Shown: piece after piece, positions 3,735 through 36,709 of the stretch | Numbering within the stretch: the first letter of the stretch is position 1 | Layout: every line of letters starts with the position of its first letter | Virus record (IMG/VR): IMGVR_UViG_3300022208_000011 | Coordinates: 1-39,970 of that record | Reading direction: 5' to 3' (one strand) | Source of the DNA: a virus | DNA: 39,970 nucleotides | Translations under genes and position numbers: made by a program | The notes under the pieces: generated by a model | The model's database searches: none | Seen by the model: the letters and a program-made list of their open reading frames with translations, nothing else | Told to the model about the DNA's origin: nothing

Positions 3735-3750
3735 TTATCGGTAACGATAA
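3735..3750. promoter_or_regulatory. 16-bp palindrome, site 1 (TTATCGGTAACGATAA)
   Basis: First of nine copies of the family TTATCG-NNNN-CGATAA. It lies in non-coding DNA between the late-operon terminator and the putative early promoter. A protein bound here would sit just upstream of that promoter, so it is a good operator candidate. Confidence 0.7.
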
Positions 3751-18503: not shown

Positions 18504-18686
18504 TTATACTTGTGGATGATTTTCTGCTTTTTCTCTGCGTTCGTCATATTCCAACGCTTGTTGCTCTTTGATCTGTTGGTTAATGTGAGCGATTAGCGGT
18601 GCAGAAATTCGATATGGCAGTTCCACGATTGCTGCGTTTAATACTTGTAGTTGCTGTTCAGTAAATGTGATTGCGAATGATTTCAT
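18504..18686 (-). CDS. Spike partner protein, copy 1 (60 aa)
   Basis: Helical 60-aa protein with core Leu-Asn-Ala-Ala-Ile-Val-Glu-Leu-Pro-Tyr-Arg-Ile and a charged tail ending Ala-Glu-Asn-His-Pro-Gln-Val. It follows the shorter pectate-lyase-fold spike with one base between stop and start (TAATATG). A second copy (19917..20090) follows the other spike with the same spacing; 46 of 57 aligned residues are identical. The strict pairing suggests a job tied to the spike, such as assembly chaperone, trimerisation aid or attachment adaptor. No known family is recognised. Confidence 0.75.
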   Translation of the reverse strand: MKSFAITFTEQQLQVLNAAIVELPYRISAPLIAHINQQIKEQQALEYDERREKAENHPQV

Positions 18687-18687
18687 A

Positions 18688-19920
18688 TTAAGTTGTTAAA
18701 TTTGAGATAAGGCCAAGATTTGCAAGTGCTTGACAAAGACTATCAAGCGCAGCGTTTCCTCCCTTTGAGCCAGTTACATTTGGTTTTGTTATTGGCTCAT
18801 AACCAAAAAAACCAATTCCAGTGTGACTCACATTTATCAAGATGTCGTTGTTTTCGTTTGTCAACTGCACCCCGCCAACACCTTTTCCCTTTATTACGAC
18901 ACTTGCGTTTGCCGCGCTACTCAGAACGGACAATGAAGGCAATCCAGACGCGCTGGCTAAAATGCGAAGATATGAATTTGCAGAAGGAGTTGTTGGGCCA
19001 ACTAGAAGAGATGGAAGCCACATTTCTGTCTCAAGAAATGTAGCATCATTTACTTTAATAAAATGCCCACATTGTCCTGCATTCATTCCAATTGCAACGC
19101 CCGTTGTAGAAATTGTTCCAAGACCATTTGCATTATTAAATGCAATTCCTTGGTTAAATGGAGATTGTGCATTGTTATTTTGGATAACAATAGCAGCCAC
19201 CGAAGGGTATGACCCAATTGAATCAATCAAAAGTCCATACGCTTGTCCAGTTGGACTTACATTGTGACTGTCAATTTCACACGCAACCCCAACTCCATTA
19301 GCAGAAACATAAGTTCCGAAATTAGACCCAAATGCGTGATTCCCATCAACAGCAACTTCGGCATTGGCGTATATTCCAACTGTTACTGCGTTTGGTGTAG
19401 ACCCTTTTAAAAAAATAGAAGTTCCAACAACGTGTTGATATGCATCAAACTCAGTGGTTACATTTTTGTAAAGAGTATCATACCCAATAGATGGGTATCC
19501 ACCAATAATTGGCATCGCATTTTGAAAATCTAAAACATTTTGAGTAAATTTTACATTTGGATCAATAGTTGCTTTAAAATCTTTAATAGGAGGAACAACA
19601 TTTGAAGTAAGTTTAAAGTTTCCTGAGGGGACATAAACTTCATTACTTGCAGCAACATTTACAGCAGCGGCAATTGCAGCGTAATCATCCGCTACCCCAT
19701 CACCCACTGCACCAAAATCCTTCACGTTAACTACATCAGCAAACCTGTTTGCCAATGTCCTGGCTGTAGTTGATCCAGTTGCCGTTACGCTGGAGCCGTT
19801 CAGCCCTACAAAGCTATTTGCCGTGACTACGCCAGCGTTGCTCACAGTCATCTGGTCAACGCCACCTACGCCGATGATTGCCTGTGTTCCGTCTGTGGAT
19901 GCTTTAATGTTTGCGCTCAT
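18688..19920 (-). CDS. Tail spike, pectate-lyase-fold type (410 aa)
   Basis: The N-terminal ~60 residues form an anchor, followed by Thr-Thr-Ala-Arg-Thr-Leu-x-x-Arg-Phe and the Val-Lys-Asp-Phe-Gly-Ala-Val-Gly-Asp-Gly motif (~70-80) that begins many pectate-lyase-3/beta-helix spikes. The rest is beta-rich with Asn ladders and Gly turns. Such spikes bind and often degrade surface polysaccharide; no catalytic residues could be assigned. It shares its N-terminal ~100 residues in pattern with the spike at 20092..21597 but differs downstream, so the receptor domain has diverged or been swapped. The start overlaps the partner gene by ATGA. Confidence 0.78.
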   Translation of the reverse strand: MSANIKASTDGTQAIIGVGGVDQMTVSNAGVVTANSFVGLNGSSVTATGSTTARTLANRFADVVNVKDFGAVGDGVADDYAAIAAAVNVAASNEVYVPSGNFKLTSNVVPPIKDFKATIDPNVKFTQNVLDFQNAMPIIGGYPSIGYDTLYKNVTTEFDAYQHVVGTSIFLKGSTPNAVTVGIYANAEVAVDGNHAFGSNFGTYVSANGVGVACEIDSHNVSPTGQAYGLLIDSIGSYPSVAAIVIQNNNAQSPFNQGIAFNNANGLGTISTTGVAIGMNAGQCGHFIKVNDATFLETEMWLPSLLVGPTTPSANSYLRILASASGLPSLSVLSSAANASVVIKGKGVGGVQLTNENNDILINVSHTGIGFFGYEPITKPNVTGSKGGNAALDSLCQALANLGLISNLTT

Positions 19921-20090
19921 AGTTGTGGATGATTTTCTGCTGATTCTCTGCGTTCGTCAAACTCCAGCATTTGCTGTTCTTTGATCTGTTGGTTGATATG
20001 GGTAATCAATGGCGCAGAAATACGATAAGGTAGCTCCACGATTGCTGCGTTAAGGATGCTCAATTGTTGTTCGTTGAATTCAATTTTCAT
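19917..20090 (-). CDS. Spike partner protein, copy 2 (57 aa)
   Basis: 57 aa, ending Ala-Glu-Asn-His-Pro-Gln-Leu and overlapping the start of the next spike by four bases (ATGA). It begins one base after the stop of the longer spike (TAATATG). It differs from copy 1 at 11 of 57 aligned positions, mostly in the first six residues. DNA identity is clear in the central part too, so the copies arose by duplication of a spike-plus-partner unit. No transmembrane segment, no Cys. A chaperone or adaptor role is inferred from the pairing. Confidence 0.75.
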   Translation of the reverse strand: MKIEFNEQQLSILNAAIVELPYRISAPLITHINQQIKEQQMLEFDERRESAENHPQL

Positions 20091-21958: not shown

Positions 21959-22999
<1,041 letters not shown>

Positions 23000-30951: not shown

Positions 30952-30975
30952 ATATAGAAAAGTGTTTGCCCACTA

Positions 30976-31004
30976 GAGGAGGTGGGTTTTATCCCACCCC
31001 CTCC
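30976..31004 (-). terminator. Strong hairpin after the capsid gene
   Basis: The minus strand forms a 6-bp GGTGGG/CCCACC stem with an ATAAAA loop, extended by a further five pairs including G.U. No T-run follows, so it may be an attenuator or an mRNA 3'-end stabiliser that lets capsid mRNA exceed downstream messages. Confidence 0.5.
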
Positions 31005-31022
31005 ATTATGAGCGGTTGTTTA

Positions 31023-32432
31023 TTACGGGGTTGGCTGACCAACACCAGCGCAGTTGTAGCAATCCGTAGGATCGGCTGGCGGGGTGTAGTCATTCAACGG
31101 GCAGCAGGAACCGTAGAGGTTCTTGGTTTTGGGCAACCTGTGCAGGAATGTGTGCATCAAGGTCGGATCTTTGACCTGAGCAGCAAGGCGGTACTGAGCT
31201 TGATAGAAGCCCATTTTGCGCCAGCGGTTGCACTCCCAATCAGGGTTCTTCCACTCCCAGTCACCAGCGTAGTTCTGGCTAGCCATTTGTGCTTGGCTGT
31301 ACCCAGTGTTAGATGGCATTGTCCATTTGGTCATTGCCTTGCTAACCATAGCAACAGAGATTGCGAAGTCGGCATTAGCGTAATCCTTATTCGGGATGTA
31401 GCTGCAACCTTGTTCTTGTACAATCTTGGTGTAGCGAGGAACACGGATCAGTTTAGCGAAGGTTGTAGGATCGTTAGGGTTGAATGGCTCAACGGGCTGA
31501 TCAGCAGTCGGAGCTGCATTGAAGCGAGCTGCGTTGATGTCATAACCGAAGGCATAGTCACCGATGACACGATTCACGCCCAGCTTGAGGCTGGAGAGGC
31601 GAGCGTCGAAGTCGGTGTTAGCATCCCAGTAACCGTTGTTACGCTTGGCTTGGAAGTAAAGCGCACGACCAACGCGAGGATCAGGGATAACGATGTCAAG
31701 AAGCTGCATTCCAGTAGCGTCGGCAATGTCGAGACGGAAAGCATCGTCCTCGTTTTGGAGGTCGATAAGAGCGTCATCGAGAAGATCGAGCGAGAGGTAA
31801 GCAACTTTAGGGAGATCAGCAACAGCGAGTTTAACACGAACTTCGCAGAGGTTGTATCCGCTGTCAGTGTTTTCGATGTTGTCGCTGGTAGGAACGAACC
31901 AAGCGGCATCGTCAACGAGGCCACAGTATGTTCCGTCATCAGTCGTAACTCCAAGCCACTTGTGTCCAGAACCGCCGATGTAGTTGGCGCGAAGGAACTC
32001 TTCGTGGACGTTCTTGGTGATACGGGCATTGCTCTCTTCAAACTGAAGGATCTCTTCAGCAGGGAAGAGGCGATAGAGAAGGCTCTCTACGCAAATCCAG
32101 TCAGTGTGCATCTCTTTGCGGAGAAGCTCAAAGGTGTAGCTCTCAGTGCCAGGACGCTGAATGACTTCAGAGTTGGTGGAGCAAGAATCAGTCTCGCAGT
32201 ATCCATCAACGATCTTGCGGAAAGGTGTGCAAGGATCATGGAAACCACGGCCAAAGCGGAAAGCTTTCTGCTCGGTGGTGTGATTGAGGGGCCAAGGCTC
32301 CTCAGTGAAGCGGGTGAAGTACGTCGAATTTGTGACGAGCTTCTTAACGTAAAGATCGTTGAAATATTCACGACCTTCGCGGAAAAAGCTGTCCAACTCT
32401 TCGCAACTATTGAATTGAATCATTTCTGACAT
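31023..32432 (-). CDS. Major capsid protein
   Basis: 469 aa from the ATG at 32432; the longer frame from 32492 would translate part of the leader hairpins and is rejected. It is a mixed alpha/beta protein of the size of HK97-fold capsid proteins, placed after a scaffold-like and a portal gene. It shows an N-terminal helix (Glu-Glu-Leu-Asp-Ser-Phe-Phe-Arg-Glu), long ordered central segments, and an unusual Cys-rich C-terminus (Gly-Ser-Cys-Cys-Pro, Cys-Tyr-Asn-Cys-Ala). No motif proves the fold; assignment is by context and by codons typical of a highly expressed gene, which also leave the opposite strand open. It has a dedicated promoter and structured leader. Confidence 0.8.
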   Translation of the reverse strand: MSEMIQFNSCEELDSFFREGREYFNDLYVKKLVTNSTYFTRFTEEPWPLNHTTEQKAFRFGRGFHDPCTPFRKIVDGYCETDSCSTNSEVIQRPGTESYTFELLRKEMHTDWICVESLLYRLFPAEEILQFEESNARITKNVHEEFLRANYIGGSGHKWLGVTTDDGTYCGLVDDAAWFVPTSDNIENTDSGYNLCEVRVKLAVADLPKVAYLSLDLLDDALIDLQNEDDAFRLDIADATGMQLLDIVIPDPRVGRALYFQAKRNNGYWDANTDFDARLSSLKLGVNRVIGDYAFGYDINAARFNAAPTADQPVEPFNPNDPTTFAKLIRVPRYTKIVQEQGCSYIPNKDYANADFAISVAMVSKAMTKWTMPSNTGYSQAQMASQNYAGDWEWKNPDWECNRWRKMGFYQAQYRLAAQVKDPTLMHTFLHRLPKTKNLYGSCCPLNDYTPPADPTDCYNCAGVGQPTP

Positions 32433-32640
32433 ATTTTTATATAGTGTTTTTGTTGTTGTTGGGTTCGCTTGACATACACAGAGGAACGCCAAGCGAGTGC
32501 TTGTTTTCCTCTGCTGGAATCTACCCAGAGAATCGGCTTATGCCGCTGTCCAGAATTACCGCTTTTCATGCGAGATCGGAAACTCGCCAGCCAGAGTGCG
32601 GCTGAATCCCTAATTGCTCACGCTTTCGGATATCTCTTTT
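32433..32640 (-). ncRNA. Structured leader RNA of the capsid gene
   Basis: About 200 nt between a promoter-like element and the capsid ATG. On the minus strand four hairpins follow one another: CAGCC/GGCTG (32604..32588), GCGAG/CTCGC (32587..32570), CTGGA/TCCAG enclosing CGGC-ATAA-GCCG (32553..32514), and an 8-bp CAGAGGAA/TTCCTCTG stem enclosing CAAGC-ACTC-GCTTG (32513..32479). Helices 1-2 and 3-4 abut, which allows coaxial stacking. The segment is more G/C-rich than its flanks. No known riboswitch or ribozyme core was recognised. A 49-codon ORF overlaps it (32569..32420). It may be a structured RNA or a translational control leader. Confidence 0.6.
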
Positions 32641-32673
32641 TTAAATAAATAGTATATATATATTACTTGTCAA
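32640..32673 (-). promoter_or_regulatory. Capsid-gene promoter
   Basis: On the minus strand TTGACA (32673..32668) is followed by an alternating A/T stretch with TATTTA/TTTATT about 16-18 bp downstream as the -10 region. It lies just after the terminator of the scaffold gene, as expected for an independent capsid transcript. Confidence 0.55.
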
Positions 32674-32676
32674 GTA

Positions 32677-32716
32677 TAAAATAGAAAGGGGAAGTAGACA
32701 TTACATCTACTCCCCC
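32677..32716 (-). terminator. Rho-independent terminator after the scaffold gene
   Basis: Eleven-bp stem with one G.U pair (GGGGGAGTAGA with TCTACTTCCCC on the minus strand), a 7-nt loop and a T-rich tail TTTCTATTTTA. One of the clearest terminators in the window; it ends the portal-scaffold transcript 26 bp after the scaffold stop. Confidence 0.8.
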
Positions 32717-32741: not shown

Positions 32742-34031
32742 TTATGCGGTAACCGACAATCTGCCTTGTGGAGTAAAGCGAGATAGCTTTGCCGCCAGTC
32801 CCTCAGACACACTCATCTTGCTACGTTGCGAATCCGATGACTTCGGTGAACTCTCTAATCGAGAAGCACCTTTTAGTTTATTAATATAGTCATCTTTTTC
32901 TTTAATCATTTCAGATTGAGCTTTGATAAGTGATTGCAGTTTTTTATAGTTTCGTCCTTGATGAATAAGGCGATTCATTTCATCCACTGATGCAGGCTCG
33001 TCTGATTGTTGCGTAGCTGATAATGCGATAGCATCATCACGCGAGGTATCATATGAGATTCCCTTCTCTGCCATATATGACTGAATGCTTTCTGGAATAT
33101 CAATTTCATTATTGATAATGTCAGATTGCCTCTTGTAGCTATCCCTCCATGTATTGATGTATTGGGATCGGGTTTCTAATTCTTTTTCTTTTGCTTTGCG
33201 TGTAATGGTTGACTTTGTTGTTTGCCAATCACTTAATGCATTTGCGTGAGCTTCCGTTGCTTTCTCGTAGTTCTTAATGGCATCCACAAACCTTACTTGA
33301 TTGTAGACATCCAATGAATTCGTTAGCTCCTTGAAGGCTTCTCTCCTGTCTTGTAGGGCTTCTCTTTTAATTTTCTCGTCTTGAGTTGAATAAGCTGCCG
33401 CGCTTGCCCTCATTGCTGAATTGAATATTGTGATCAATTGCTCGTCATCTCCCAGCAATTCTTTTGCTTCAAGATAAGAATTTTGTAAAGGAACAACATA
33501 TTTGCTTTGGAAATCTTCACTAGCAGAAAGGTCGTAAAACTCTACTTGGCTTTTTAGATCTTGGATCTGTTTGCTTAATTGTGCTTCCAGATCTGCTTTC
33601 TGTTCGTTGATTTCATTTAGCTGTTGCTGGTAGTGTTTCTCTTCTTCAGAAGATTTGCTTTGCTCCACCAGTTTTTCCAACTCCTCAATGCGCTGAGTGT
33701 ATTTAGGAACTTCTTCAGACTTTACTTTTTCTAGTTCCTTTTTGAGCTTTTTGTTCTCTTCAATTTGTTTTTGAACAAATCCAGGCTTCTTCTTATCCAT
33801 TTGGATAGTCGGCTTCTTTTCATCATTATCGTTACCGATAACATCTTCAGAAACATCTTCGGAATACATCTCTGTCTCTTCTTCATCATATTCCATTTTA
33901 GAACCATCTGCATTCTTACTAAACCTCTTTAGGAAGTCTGATGTATTGCCCTTGATGGGGATTTGTGGTTTACTTTGAAGATCTTTGATGATCTCCGCAG
34001 TCTCTTTGCTTGCTGTGTTTTGTTCGCTCAT
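32742..34031 (-). CDS. Scaffold-like coiled-coil protein (429 aa)
   Basis: Acidic N-terminal third (Asp-Glu-Glu-Glu-Thr-Glu), then an extended Glu/Lys/Gln coiled coil (about 85-165 and 235-350), and a basic Ser-rich C-terminus (Lys-Met-Ser, Arg-Phe-Thr-Pro-Gln-Gly-Arg). This is the normal make-up of capsid scaffolding proteins, with a basic tail that contacts the shell. It sits between portal and capsid genes. It contains palindrome site 7 near residue 65 (Val-Ile-Gly-Asn-Asp-Asn). A strong terminator follows. No protease triad is seen, so it is probably removed intact or by another enzyme. Confidence 0.72.
   Translation of the reverse strand: MSEQNTASKETAEIIKDLQSKPQIPIKGNTSDFLKRFSKNADGSKMEYDEEETEMYSEDVSEDVIGNDNDEKKPTIQMDKKKPGFVQKQIEENKKLKKELEKVKSEEVPKYTQRIEELEKLVEQSKSSEEEKHYQQQLNEINEQKADLEAQLSKQIQDLKSQVEFYDLSASEDFQSKYVVPLQNSYLEAKELLGDDEQLITIFNSAMRASAAAYSTQDEKIKREALQDRREAFKELTNSLDVYNQVRFVDAIKNYEKATEAHANALSDWQTTKSTITRKAKEKELETRSQYINTWRDSYKRQSDIINNEIDIPESIQSYMAEKGISYDTSRDDAIALSATQQSDEPASVDEMNRLIHQGRNYKKLQSLIKAQSEMIKEKDDYINKLKGASRLESSPKSSDSQRSKMSVSEGLAAKLSRFTPQGRLSVTA
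33826..33841. promoter_or_regulatory. 16-bp palindrome, site 7 (TTATCGTTACCGATAA)
   Basis: Inside the scaffold-like gene, encoding Ile-Gly-Asn-Asp on the minus strand. The codon phase is the same as in the terminase copy (site 9). Confidence 0.65.
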
Positions 34032-34034
34032 AAA

Positions 34035-34274
34035 TTAGGCTTCGTCCAAATCTGGATCAAATGGTTGATCATCTCCATATGATTTCAGCTTCTTTGACTT
34101 CTTAAATTTCTCTACTCCAGATTCGGCATTCACTTCAATAGTTCCAATTGCGTGACGAACTGATTCAATGCCGATTGCTGGGCATGTCATAAGTATGTGT
34201 GTTTTAAGTGCGTACCAATCATCATGATTAATGATCGAGGCGCATAGTCCTTGGATTCGGTCTGTTGTATTCAT
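34035..34274 (-). CDS. Small head-region protein (79 aa)
   Basis: Function unknown. Helical N-terminus with Cys and His, then a Lys-rich stretch (Val-Glu-Lys-Phe-Lys-Lys-Ser-Lys-Lys-Leu-Lys) and an acidic end (Phe-Asp-Pro-Asp-Leu-Asp-Glu-Ala). The start overlaps the portal stop as ATGA, and the scaffold start follows after three bases. Constant proximity to portal and scaffold suggests a small head-assembly factor. No Shine-Dalgarno sequence; translation is probably coupled to that of the portal. Confidence 0.65.
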   Translation of the reverse strand: MNTTDRIQGLCASIINHDDWYALKTHILMTCPAIGIESVRHAIGTIEVNAESGVEKFKKSKKLKSYGDDQPFDPDLDEA

Positions 34275-36709
34275 TCGGGTTGTGGTTTAGCAACTTGCAT
34301 AGGAGTTTGTGGAGTCTCCTCTTCTTCTACTTCTTCAACTTCTTCTTCCTCTTCTGGCATCTGTCCTTTAGCCTTCTGAATCTCAGCGCGAGCCTTGGCT
34401 TTCTGCATGGCAAGCTGGGTGATACCCTGCTGCTTGCGTTGCTCTGTACGCTGGGCGTGGCTGATGGATGCCTTTCCGATTGCAATATCTGCAAGTTTTT
34501 GTTGAGTTTCAATCTCGATACCAGACTTCGCAGCGAGATACTGGAGCTTGAGATCTTCTTCTGATCCACCCTTACCTTGACCTTGCTCTTGTTCGCTTTG
34601 TGCCATGTCTTGATAAACTTGCCCAATTTGGTCTGCCATCTTAGAGGCTTCTCCCATACCTTGCATAAATTGCTTGATGAAGTCTTGCTTGGTTTGATCT
34701 TTGGCAATGAACTCAACGTGCGCCATGATATGACCACCTTTAAATTGCACTGAACGAACAGCCCTTGCCAACTGATCCACGTCTGGTTGCCCAGCTTGAA
34801 TCATTTGAAGGTTGGTTTGCAACTGAAGTATAAGATCAGCAAAATGACCTTGCGCGTGTTCTACGTGCGGATCAGTTGGAAGTACTGGGAAGTTTGCTGG
34901 GTTAACAAACACATCTGTCATTCCAGCATTCTCAAACCCAATAATGCGTGTATTATCATCAATGCGTTCTGCCTTAGTATCCCTATAACGTATTACGTTG
35001 TCCCTCCCCGCCAAAGCTGCGATTGCGTCTTTAACGGCATTTTCTTGTCCTTCGTTGGCTGGTGTGATCGAAGTAAGTTGTACAAGTTTCTCCGCAGTGA
35101 TGAGCTTGAATGAAGGGGAACCAGCTCCGTTGATGAGGTTGCTTCGCACGCTTGTAATGTTTTTCCAAGAAGCGGCTTCTTTAGGTGTTCCGAGTTGTTC
35201 AAGGATTTGATAGAATTTTTTGACATATTCGTATCCATCGTCTTCACGATTGGCTGAAACAAATCTGCGATAAAGTTCTTTAAAGTAAAGAGTTTCGCAT
35301 TCGTTGAATCGTCTGATTTGTGTTCCAGAAAGTTTTGCGGATTCCGCTGCATCTAACTCTGCTTCACCTTTAGTGCGTTGCTTACCACCCGCTGTTGGTT
35401 GTCCGATACGATACTGGCCGAGGTTGCGGTACAGATCGTTCATGTAGAACTGCATGAATCCCATGCTTTCTCCTACTGGTAGTTGGAAACGATTCTGTGT
35501 GAACTTGGCTCCGTCTGGCATCACGCTGATAGGCAACCATTCCATTTGCTTAAGCATCTTCGTAGCGTCAGGAGATTGCCCTTCAATCATCAACATTGAA
35601 TTAAGACGAACAGCATCAACTAGACCATTCATTGTGAAATCGTACTGACGACAAGCAACATACGCAGCTTCAGCTTGGCTTTTAATATCATGGAATAATC
35701 CAGATCCAACTGAGTCTGTTAGCATATATAGTACTTCACTCCAGTCATCATATGCACCAACTTGAAGTTGTAGGAACCCGTGTTGATCTCGAATCGTTTC
35801 TTCTGAAATCTTGTTGTTACCACGGGCTGTTTTATTGATTTCAGTTATAATTGGATTGTAGTCTTGCAATACAACCGCCTTGCTGATCTTACCATCGAAC
35901 TCCCTCCAATAGATTTCATACAGATCAATCTTTTGGTTTACAGACAACGACCAGTTAAATCCGCTTTCTGAAATCGTGCGAAAGAAGTCTTCTCTGCTTT
36001 TGTTGTGTTCACTGAATGCTCGATGGAAACGAATTGCATCAATTACAGCATCTACGTTCCAACCGATTGCTTCTGCCGCTTCCTTGTTTTGGATGACTTT
36101 ATAAAGTTCGTAGGGGGTTGGTCTGCGACGAACAGCGAACTCTTCAAGATTGCTGAAATCGATTTTGATATCATCTGGAAAAAGAAGGTCAGACAGAAAG
36201 ATGTGTTTGGGCATCCATCCAAATTGACTATCCCACATGCCAATTCCTTTTCCGTACAACAACATGCTTTCGATGTCTTGCTCTTTGTTGTATAGGTAGC
36301 CCGACCATTCACGGATCGCTTGGTCAAAAGCTTGCGTGAGGTTTTCCGAATGCATGAGCTGCTCCCTCTTGTTACCGTATTTCGTTTTGATCGTGGCGCA
36401 GGCTTGCCTTTCTGTGATGATATCATAGTAACTAGACTTTTGGTTGTTAACAATAGCTTCAAGACTTCCCCAGTTAACGTCAGATTGCCAAGGTAGTTTC
36501 TTCTCTGCTATCTTGCTGTATCCCGTTGGTGGGAAACGCTTGTATGCTTTATATACACGAATCCGTTTGTTTTCTCTTCCAGTGTTTGCTAGAGATAGCT
36601 GATTTGCAATATTCCACGCATGGTTTGCTGAAGATACTCTTGTAGCTGGTGGTTCACCTTCTGGCCCAAGAGTTAGAAGTGAATAGTTGTCGTTGCCTGT
36701 TGAGATCAT
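34271..36709 (-). CDS. Portal protein (812 aa)
   Basis: Large protein with an N-terminal clip/wing-like region containing Trp-Asn-Ile-Ala-Asn and Arg-Val-Tyr-Lys-Ala-Tyr-Lys-Arg, a central body rich in aromatic residues, and a helical C-terminal part with a long Gln/Glu region (~720-812) ending in Pro/Gln repeats. At 812 aa it is larger than most siphophage portals and similar to those of large-portal podoviruses. Position next to the terminase and before scaffold and capsid supports the call. An N-terminal Asn-Asp run is followed by Leu-Gly-Pro-Glu-Gly-Glu-Pro-Pro. The start lies 7 bp from palindrome site 8, which overlaps its promoter. Confidence 0.82.
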   Translation of the reverse strand: MISTGNDNYSLLTLGPEGEPPATRVSSANHAWNIANQLSLANTGRENKRIRVYKAYKRFPPTGYSKIAEKKLPWQSDVNWGSLEAIVNNQKSSYYDIITERQACATIKTKYGNKREQLMHSENLTQAFDQAIREWSGYLYNKEQDIESMLLYGKGIGMWDSQFGWMPKHIFLSDLLFPDDIKIDFSNLEEFAVRRRPTPYELYKVIQNKEAAEAIGWNVDAVIDAIRFHRAFSEHNKSREDFFRTISESGFNWSLSVNQKIDLYEIYWREFDGKISKAVVLQDYNPIITEINKTARGNNKISEETIRDQHGFLQLQVGAYDDWSEVLYMLTDSVGSGLFHDIKSQAEAAYVACRQYDFTMNGLVDAVRLNSMLMIEGQSPDATKMLKQMEWLPISVMPDGAKFTQNRFQLPVGESMGFMQFYMNDLYRNLGQYRIGQPTAGGKQRTKGEAELDAAESAKLSGTQIRRFNECETLYFKELYRRFVSANREDDGYEYVKKFYQILEQLGTPKEAASWKNITSVRSNLINGAGSPSFKLITAEKLVQLTSITPANEGQENAVKDAIAALAGRDNVIRYRDTKAERIDDNTRIIGFENAGMTDVFVNPANFPVLPTDPHVEHAQGHFADLILQLQTNLQMIQAGQPDVDQLARAVRSVQFKGGHIMAHVEFIAKDQTKQDFIKQFMQGMGEASKMADQIGQVYQDMAQSEQEQGQGKGGSEEDLKLQYLAAKSGIEIETQQKLADIAIGKASISHAQRTEQRKQQGITQLAMQKAKARAEIQKAKGQMPEEEEEVEEVEEEETPQTPMQVAKPQPE

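Follow-up and report, generated by a model that had tools for sequence, protein, structure and literature searches.

A predicted pseudoknotted 5' leader RNA before the presumed major capsid gene of a group of uncultured phages

Riboswitches, ribozymes and partners of the ribosome account for most RNAs that combine such intricacy with strong covariation support. Among viral examples, the intergenic IRES of the dicistroviruses, which are eukaryotic RNA viruses, is about 190 nt long, contains three pseudoknots and lies directly before the capsid coding sequence; initiation takes place without an AUG, next to the fold. As for phages, the gp32 protein of T4 binds a pseudoknot in the 5' leader of its own mRNA and spreads over unstructured RNA as far as the ribosome binding site (PMC3014915). 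Concerning mRNA decay in bacteria, both RppH and RNase E require single-stranded 5' ends (PMC3997798). At the level of translation, ACA motifs boost initiation, ACAA repeats promote it in the absence of a Shine-Dalgarno sequence, and the SELEX ligands of ribosomal protein S1 are pseudoknots with ACA loops (PMC3879156). The RNA analysed here, for which no description was found in the open-access literature, accompanies the presumed capsid gene throughout a group of uncultured phages. It provides a testable model for the expression of an abundant coat protein in phages whose genes are devoid of Shine-Dalgarno sites, and could possibly serve as a portable expression part.

The capsid locus and its expression signals

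The window analysed is a 39,970-base virus record in which the majority of the genes lie on the minus strand. The opening gene of the leader transcript (31023..32432, minus strand) codes for a 469-aa protein, presumed to be the major capsid protein on the basis of gene order and strong conservation: its gene is preceded by others sized like those of a terminase, a portal protein and a scaffold. Searches of PHROGs, Pfam and PDB sequences found no family or sequence match to this protein, and its AlphaFold2 prediction reaches a mean pLDDT of just 27. Ahead of it, also on the minus strand, are ORFs of 812 aa (34271-36709) and 429 aa (32742-34031), beyond which the plus strand encodes a terminase-like protein whose PHROG match is weak (E 1.7e-6). 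The interval between the 429-aa gene and the capsid gene holds a terminator, a TTGACA element and some 200 nt free of long genes. The leader transcript could extend across genes of the same strand for about 32 kb.

Both the strong terminator and the TTGACA promoter element claimed by the initial annotation were located on the minus strand. The former, an intrinsic terminator of the upstream transcription unit with a 14-pair stem and a U-rich tail, lies at 32717-32687; the latter is the -35 element (32673-32668) of a predicted promoter whose -10 element, TATTTA (~32651-32646, minus strand), is weak. Under a strict test, 51 of the 63 relatives have a terminator-like hairpin ahead of the promoter, and several of the other 12 have hairpins with longer loops at this site. 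The first T of TTGACA is separated by 35-40 nt (mode 37) from the 5' strand of PK1, the most upstream pseudoknot of the leader, in all 63 representatives. Since transcription from a sigma-70-type promoter begins about that distance past the first T, the 5' end of the transcript is probably located inside PK1; judged from this spacing, although the -10 element is weak, the start would probably fall on PK1 or about 3 nt from it at most.

Directly after the capsid stop codon, a GC-rich hairpin without U-tract is found (30974..31005, minus strand). A post-stop hairpin with a stem of at least 7 pairs is present in 60 of 60 relatives vs. 71 of 315 control windows. With the terminator before and this hairpin after, the capsid message is thus bracketed by structure. 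In some relatives, an apparent outer stem accompanies the post-capsid hairpin (e.g. GCUCAAG/CUUGGGC in L005).

The linker leading to the start codon (32433..32464, minus strand) is A/C-rich and nearly G-free: across 63 relatives, the 35 nt that precede the AUG consist of 61% A, 22% C, 15% T and just 1.8% G. The capsid start had been described as lacking a Shine-Dalgarno sequence, which is true, as the 4-mer core is absent from the last 20 nt before the capsid AUG in all of them (0/63). As an argument for an RNA function, however, this absence carries no weight, since Shine-Dalgarno sites are lacking genome-wide, with only 3 of the 28 window genes having one. The predicted openness around the capsid AUG (0.60 vs. 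0.53 for the other window genes) differs little.

Predicted fold of the leader and its conservation

The predicted fold spans about 185 nt and comprises P1, P2, P3, P4/P5 and P6/P7, together with at least three pseudoknots, PK1 to PK3 (all coordinates in this section refer to the minus strand). The 5' strand of PK1, AGAG (32634..32637), pairs with CUCU (32596-32593) inside the loop of the P2 hairpin (CAGCC/GGCUG, 32588..32604). Changes on both sides were seen in all four PK1 pairs and all five P2 pairs, and PK1 column pair 5-58 is AU in 32 sequences, GC in 31 and unpaired in none. Lying between the PK1 5' strand and P2, the P1 hairpin (32609..32629) joins CC (32629-32628) to GG (32610-32609), with a conserved GAA/AUUA internal loop and a GC-GUGA-GC tip; its column pair 11-41 is CG in 44 sequences and AU in 19. 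The P3 hairpin (GCGAG/CUCGC, 32570..32587), 99.7% of whose cells are paired, carries in its loop the 5' strand of PK2, CCG (32579-32577), which pairs with CGG at 32559..32561; the PK2 column pairs are CG 34/UA 28 and CG 32/AU 30. Further downstream, the P4 helix (32514..32553; CUGGA 32553-32549 with UCCAG 32518-32514), 100% paired and with one pair being UA in 38 and CG in 25 sequences, encloses the variable hairpin P5 (32545-32534) and the 5' strand of PK3, CUCUG (32530-32526). The 3' strand of PK3, CAGAG (32509..32513), doubles as the start of P6 (32479..32513), in which CAGAGGAA (32513-32506) pairs with UUCCUCUG (32486-32479), and which encloses P7 (CAAGC 32503-32499 with GCUUG 32494-32490; loop ACUC; 97.5% paired). 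Finally, part of the conserved octamer GCACUCGC (32500-32493) is complementary to GCGA at 32465..32468, and the two may form a fourth pseudoknot, PK4, of 4 bp in the window and up to 8 bp in L031. Its support is weaker than that of PK1-PK3, its own and swapped strands being only slightly separated (12.4 vs. 11.7) in the strand-swap test described below.

The 8-bp outer stem (CAGAGGAA/UUCCUCUG) and the 5-bp inner stem (CAAGC/GCUUG) noted by the initial annotation thus exist as P6 and P7, with the reservation that P6 competes with the better supported PK3. The hairpins that it had drawn as at least four abutting elements are not arranged as simple neighbours: the domain is pseudoknotted, the first nucleotides of the transcript join the fold, and three pseudoknots had been missed. 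The single-sequence minimum free energy structure joins the 5' GAGA to strand A (see below), a pairing that is not conserved and whose place PK1 takes.

On its own, the region 32645-32430 folds with -59.7 kcal/mol (z -2.24), and 3 of 200 shuffles did equally well. As this is only moderately unusual, the decisive evidence is comparative. A covariation scan was run on 83 sequences with a tree-based null written for the analysis; its five top covarying pairs, located in PK1, PK2 (two pairs), P2 and P1, were unmatched in 60 simulated alignments. On a covariance-model alignment of 63 sequences, which was fitted to the nested helices and favours those, PK1-PK3 being outside the model, 94.7% of the cells of the structure with PK1-PK3 are paired, and the covariation score is 0.313, vs. 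0.115 for shuffles and at most 0.069 for slid structures. A strand-swap test, in which the own strands of each sequence are compared with strands swapped between sequences and no column alignment is used, was conducted on 59 sequences (4 of the 63 were left out). Own vs. swapped values were 11.1 vs. 8.5 for PK1, 11.2 vs. 8.4 for PK2, 12.3 vs. 8.6 for PK3 and 15.5 vs. 11.2 for P6, each reached in 0 of 2000 permutations, counts that are not probabilities because the sequences are related. None of five control combinations showed a comparable separation.

The check proposed at the outset, i.e. covariation across relatives, has therefore yielded compensatory changes, both sides having changed in 23 of the 41 pairs of the 63-sequence alignment. 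A structure arising by chance, for which one could invoke the single-sequence z-value, is extremely improbable in view of the scores of the slid structures and of the top five pairs left unreached by the tree-based null, and these comparisons make it almost certain that the RNA fold is real. As to the earlier suggestion that the structure has a function, it is strongly supported by the many compensatory changes and by the presence of the RNA in every sufficiently long relative. Translation of the leader region into protein appears unlikely, since the leaders of the relatives differ by insertions and deletions whose lengths are not multiples of three.

Two of these helices share a strand. Strand B, directly after P4, forms PK3 with strand A inside P4, and P6 with strand C beyond P7; both helices are present and share at least 3 nt in 53 of the 59 sequences. 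In 98% of the own combinations (41% when swapped), A pairs with the initial four nucleotides of B; the figure for C is 66% (27% when swapped), which indicates that PK3 is more strictly kept than P6. The outer part of P6 may represent a folding intermediate or a second state, and the competition hints at switching.

Occurrence of the leader and other features of the phage group

A capsid-protein search of viral contigs found 196 relatives, 80 of which were retained, and a second, alignment-based search added 80 further loci on contigs partly shared with the first set. The leader HMM matches 157 of these 160 capsid-fetched loci, the three others (L029, L262 and L320) being contigs truncated at the capsid gene or shortly ahead of it. 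In an independent check anchored on the terminase, the leader RNA was found in 31 of the 31 loci with enough sequence, on the strand opposite to the terminase and 4.5-5.8 kb off. With pattern-fetched loci included, it occurs in 225 records as 85 distinct sequences, with a single match per locus; three of the loci fetched with the RNA pattern are chance matches. One full copy is present in each of 16 records of 50-60 kb, while one 58 kb record has two copies, 54.2 kb apart, which fits an assembled genome of about 54 kb that is terminally redundant. The leaders of L064, L140, L146, L078, L117 and L126 look mosaic, with PK1/PK2 and PK3/P6 halves variously combined among close relatives, which suggests recombination within the RNA.

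Neither the leader DNA nor the capsid protein gave any match in 50,697 phage records. A strict RNA pattern retrieved about 90 stretches from 84,980 bacterial and archaeal genomes; all those inspected (with a P3-like hairpin upstream, plus those from likelier hosts) were unrelated, and no copy outside phages was found among them. With a looser pattern in viral contigs, the true matches among those listed belong to the same phage group and the others are due to chance. Partial covariance-model matches elsewhere were rejected as leader copies, as they mostly correspond to a dispersed TTATCG palindrome, some within coding sequence. As for the host, searches with the capsid protein as query found nothing, either in the phylum of an Akkermansiaceae MAG (388 genomes) or in that of a Flavobacterium genome (395 genomes).

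The absence of a recognised RNA class, as previously stated, was upheld against Rfam 15: no family exceeded its gathering threshold in the window, and no plausible match was obtained at E up to 10 for the window, L028, L009 or L068. ARAGORN and Rfam revealed no tRNA-like or tmRNA domain in the window, and no match to known packaging RNAs, such as the phi29 packaging RNA (pRNA), emerged from Rfam, whether at threshold or with E relaxed to 10.

The palindrome TATCGNNNNCGATA is found in the window at 3736, 10159, 15086, 17424, 21907, 24578, 30666, 33827, 36718 and 38889, i.e. 10 copies vs. 0.04 expected by chance, some directly before start codons and others within coding sequence. The form TTATCGNNNNCGATAA has 6-17 copies in each of 16 relatives (0 for the reversed-pattern control). 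It looks like a genome-wide DNA-binding site of this phage group, such as an operator, a stoperator or a partition-like site. In most relatives (e.g. L028, L053 and L068), the P1 tip (GC-GUGA-GC, 32623-32616 in the window) is replaced by the palindrome UUAUCG-NNNN-CGAUAA, as though a copy of this dispersed element had been inserted into the RNA.

Collagen-like triplet repeats were observed at 22132-22877, in a tail-fibre gene whose matches to tail fibres in PHROG are strong. This gene (start at 22999) is directly preceded by a perfect 12/12 sigma-70 promoter match (TTGACA, 18 nt, TATAAT; 23040-23011, minus strand). A 161-nt direct repeat (78% identical; 18506-18666 and 19919-20079) lies in the gaps beside two tail-spike-like genes and is a possible recombination site for spike swapping.

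Possible roles and comparison with known systems

The fold and its strict association with the presumed capsid gene are what can be read from the sequences. Our favoured reading, held tentatively, is that of a new family of cis-acting 5' leader RNAs that would stabilise the capsid mRNA and aid ribosome loading. Transcription would begin at PK1 or no more than about 3 nt from it and lock the 5' end in a pseudoknot, hiding it from decay that depends on the 5' end, through RppH together with enzymes of the RNase E or J type. Behind the pseudoknotted domain, the A/C-rich, G-free strip would act as a ribosome landing site independent of Shine-Dalgarno pairing, possibly with the involvement of ribosomal protein S1, and the leader and the post-stop hairpin together would give a durable, heavily translated capsid message. 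The location of PK1 at the expected transcription start, the scarcity of G in the linker and the existence of an own transcription unit, with a terminator before and a hairpin after, all argue for this stabilising role. It is weakened by a fold far more elaborate than the protection of a 5' end needs, by an AUG predicted to be barely more open than those of other genes, and by the competition between PK3 and P6.

This complexity and this competition keep autoregulation or switching in play. The capsid, scaffold or a ribosomal protein, or a small ligand, could favour either PK3 or P6 (and P7 or PK4) and so tune capsid synthesis, a possibility to which we give somewhat less credence. The shared nucleotides of PK3 and P6, both of which covary, and the similar layout of the T4 gene 32 leader, in which a pseudoknot is followed by an unstructured stretch, speak in its favour, whereas no conserved pairing extends to the start codon, some 35 nt distant, no conserved terminator exists within the leader, and the outer part of P6, retained in just two thirds of the sequences, may be a folding intermediate. 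The multi-pseudoknot RNA could also be a bacterial counterpart of an IRES, docking the ribosome or its 30S subunit and driving coat-protein translation independently of Shine-Dalgarno pairing, perhaps through the PK3/P6 change; we regard this reading as unlikely. Similarly unlikely is a put-like action, by which the nascent leader would bind RNA polymerase and carry it past terminators in the long late operon: the RNA does stand at the very start of a transcript able to span about 32 kb, and putL of HK022 is a folded RNA just downstream of a promoter, but put RNA consists of some 70 nt and two stem-loops (PMC9378689), the terminator-like sites downstream on the minus strand are few and weak, and the post-capsid hairpin has no U-tract. 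A compact, self-contained fold, present as a single copy per genome near packaging genes, could equally be cut from the mRNA or made alone and act in trans, e.g. as a packaging or anti-defence RNA. Against this, which is about as improbable as the put-like action, no terminator separates the RNA from the capsid AUG, the G-free linker connects the two in every relative, and Rfam gives no match to packaging or other known RNAs. Several pseudoknots and invariant nucleotides might also recall a self-cleaving ribozyme trimming its own transcript, but no catalytic core was recognised and no Rfam ribozyme matched, even at E up to 10, which leaves it very improbable.

Compared with described systems, the locus shares with the T4 gene 32 leader a phage mRNA, an upstream pseudoknot and an unstructured stretch reaching the start codon (PMC3014915). 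The T4 pseudoknot known from the literature is, in contrast, single, small and 67 nt upstream, where at least three are found here at the 5' end; its stretch is A+U-rich instead of A/C-rich, and gene 32 encodes a single-strand DNA binding protein, whereas the gene concerned here is a presumed capsid gene. HK022 put RNA, too, is folded and placed at the beginning of a phage transcript or close to it (PMC9378689), but it belongs to early operons and has ~70 nt, two stem-loops and no comparable pseudoknot architecture, vs. ~185 nt, several helices and three pseudoknots in the present case. The stabilising 5' hairpins of bacterial mRNAs have in common with this leader a structure at the extreme 5' end that is expected to block RppH and RNase E (PMC3997798); they are simple stems, whereas a conserved, sequence-rich pseudoknotted domain is found here. 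As in the ACA translation enhancers, an A/C-rich single-stranded stretch lies upstream of the start codon (PMC3879156), although those act in combination with a Shine-Dalgarno sequence in enterobacteria and this one stands without it, behind a folded domain. The likeness to the dicistrovirus IRES would be one of layout only: the virus here is a DNA phage, and its AUG lies some 35 nt from the fold. The competition of PK3 and P6 for one strand might point to the two alternative conformations of a riboswitch; no link from this competition to a terminator or to the start codon was found. As a whole, the leader RNA appears to be of a known kind, that of folded leaders, while being new as a family and by the number of pseudoknots before a presumed phage capsid gene.
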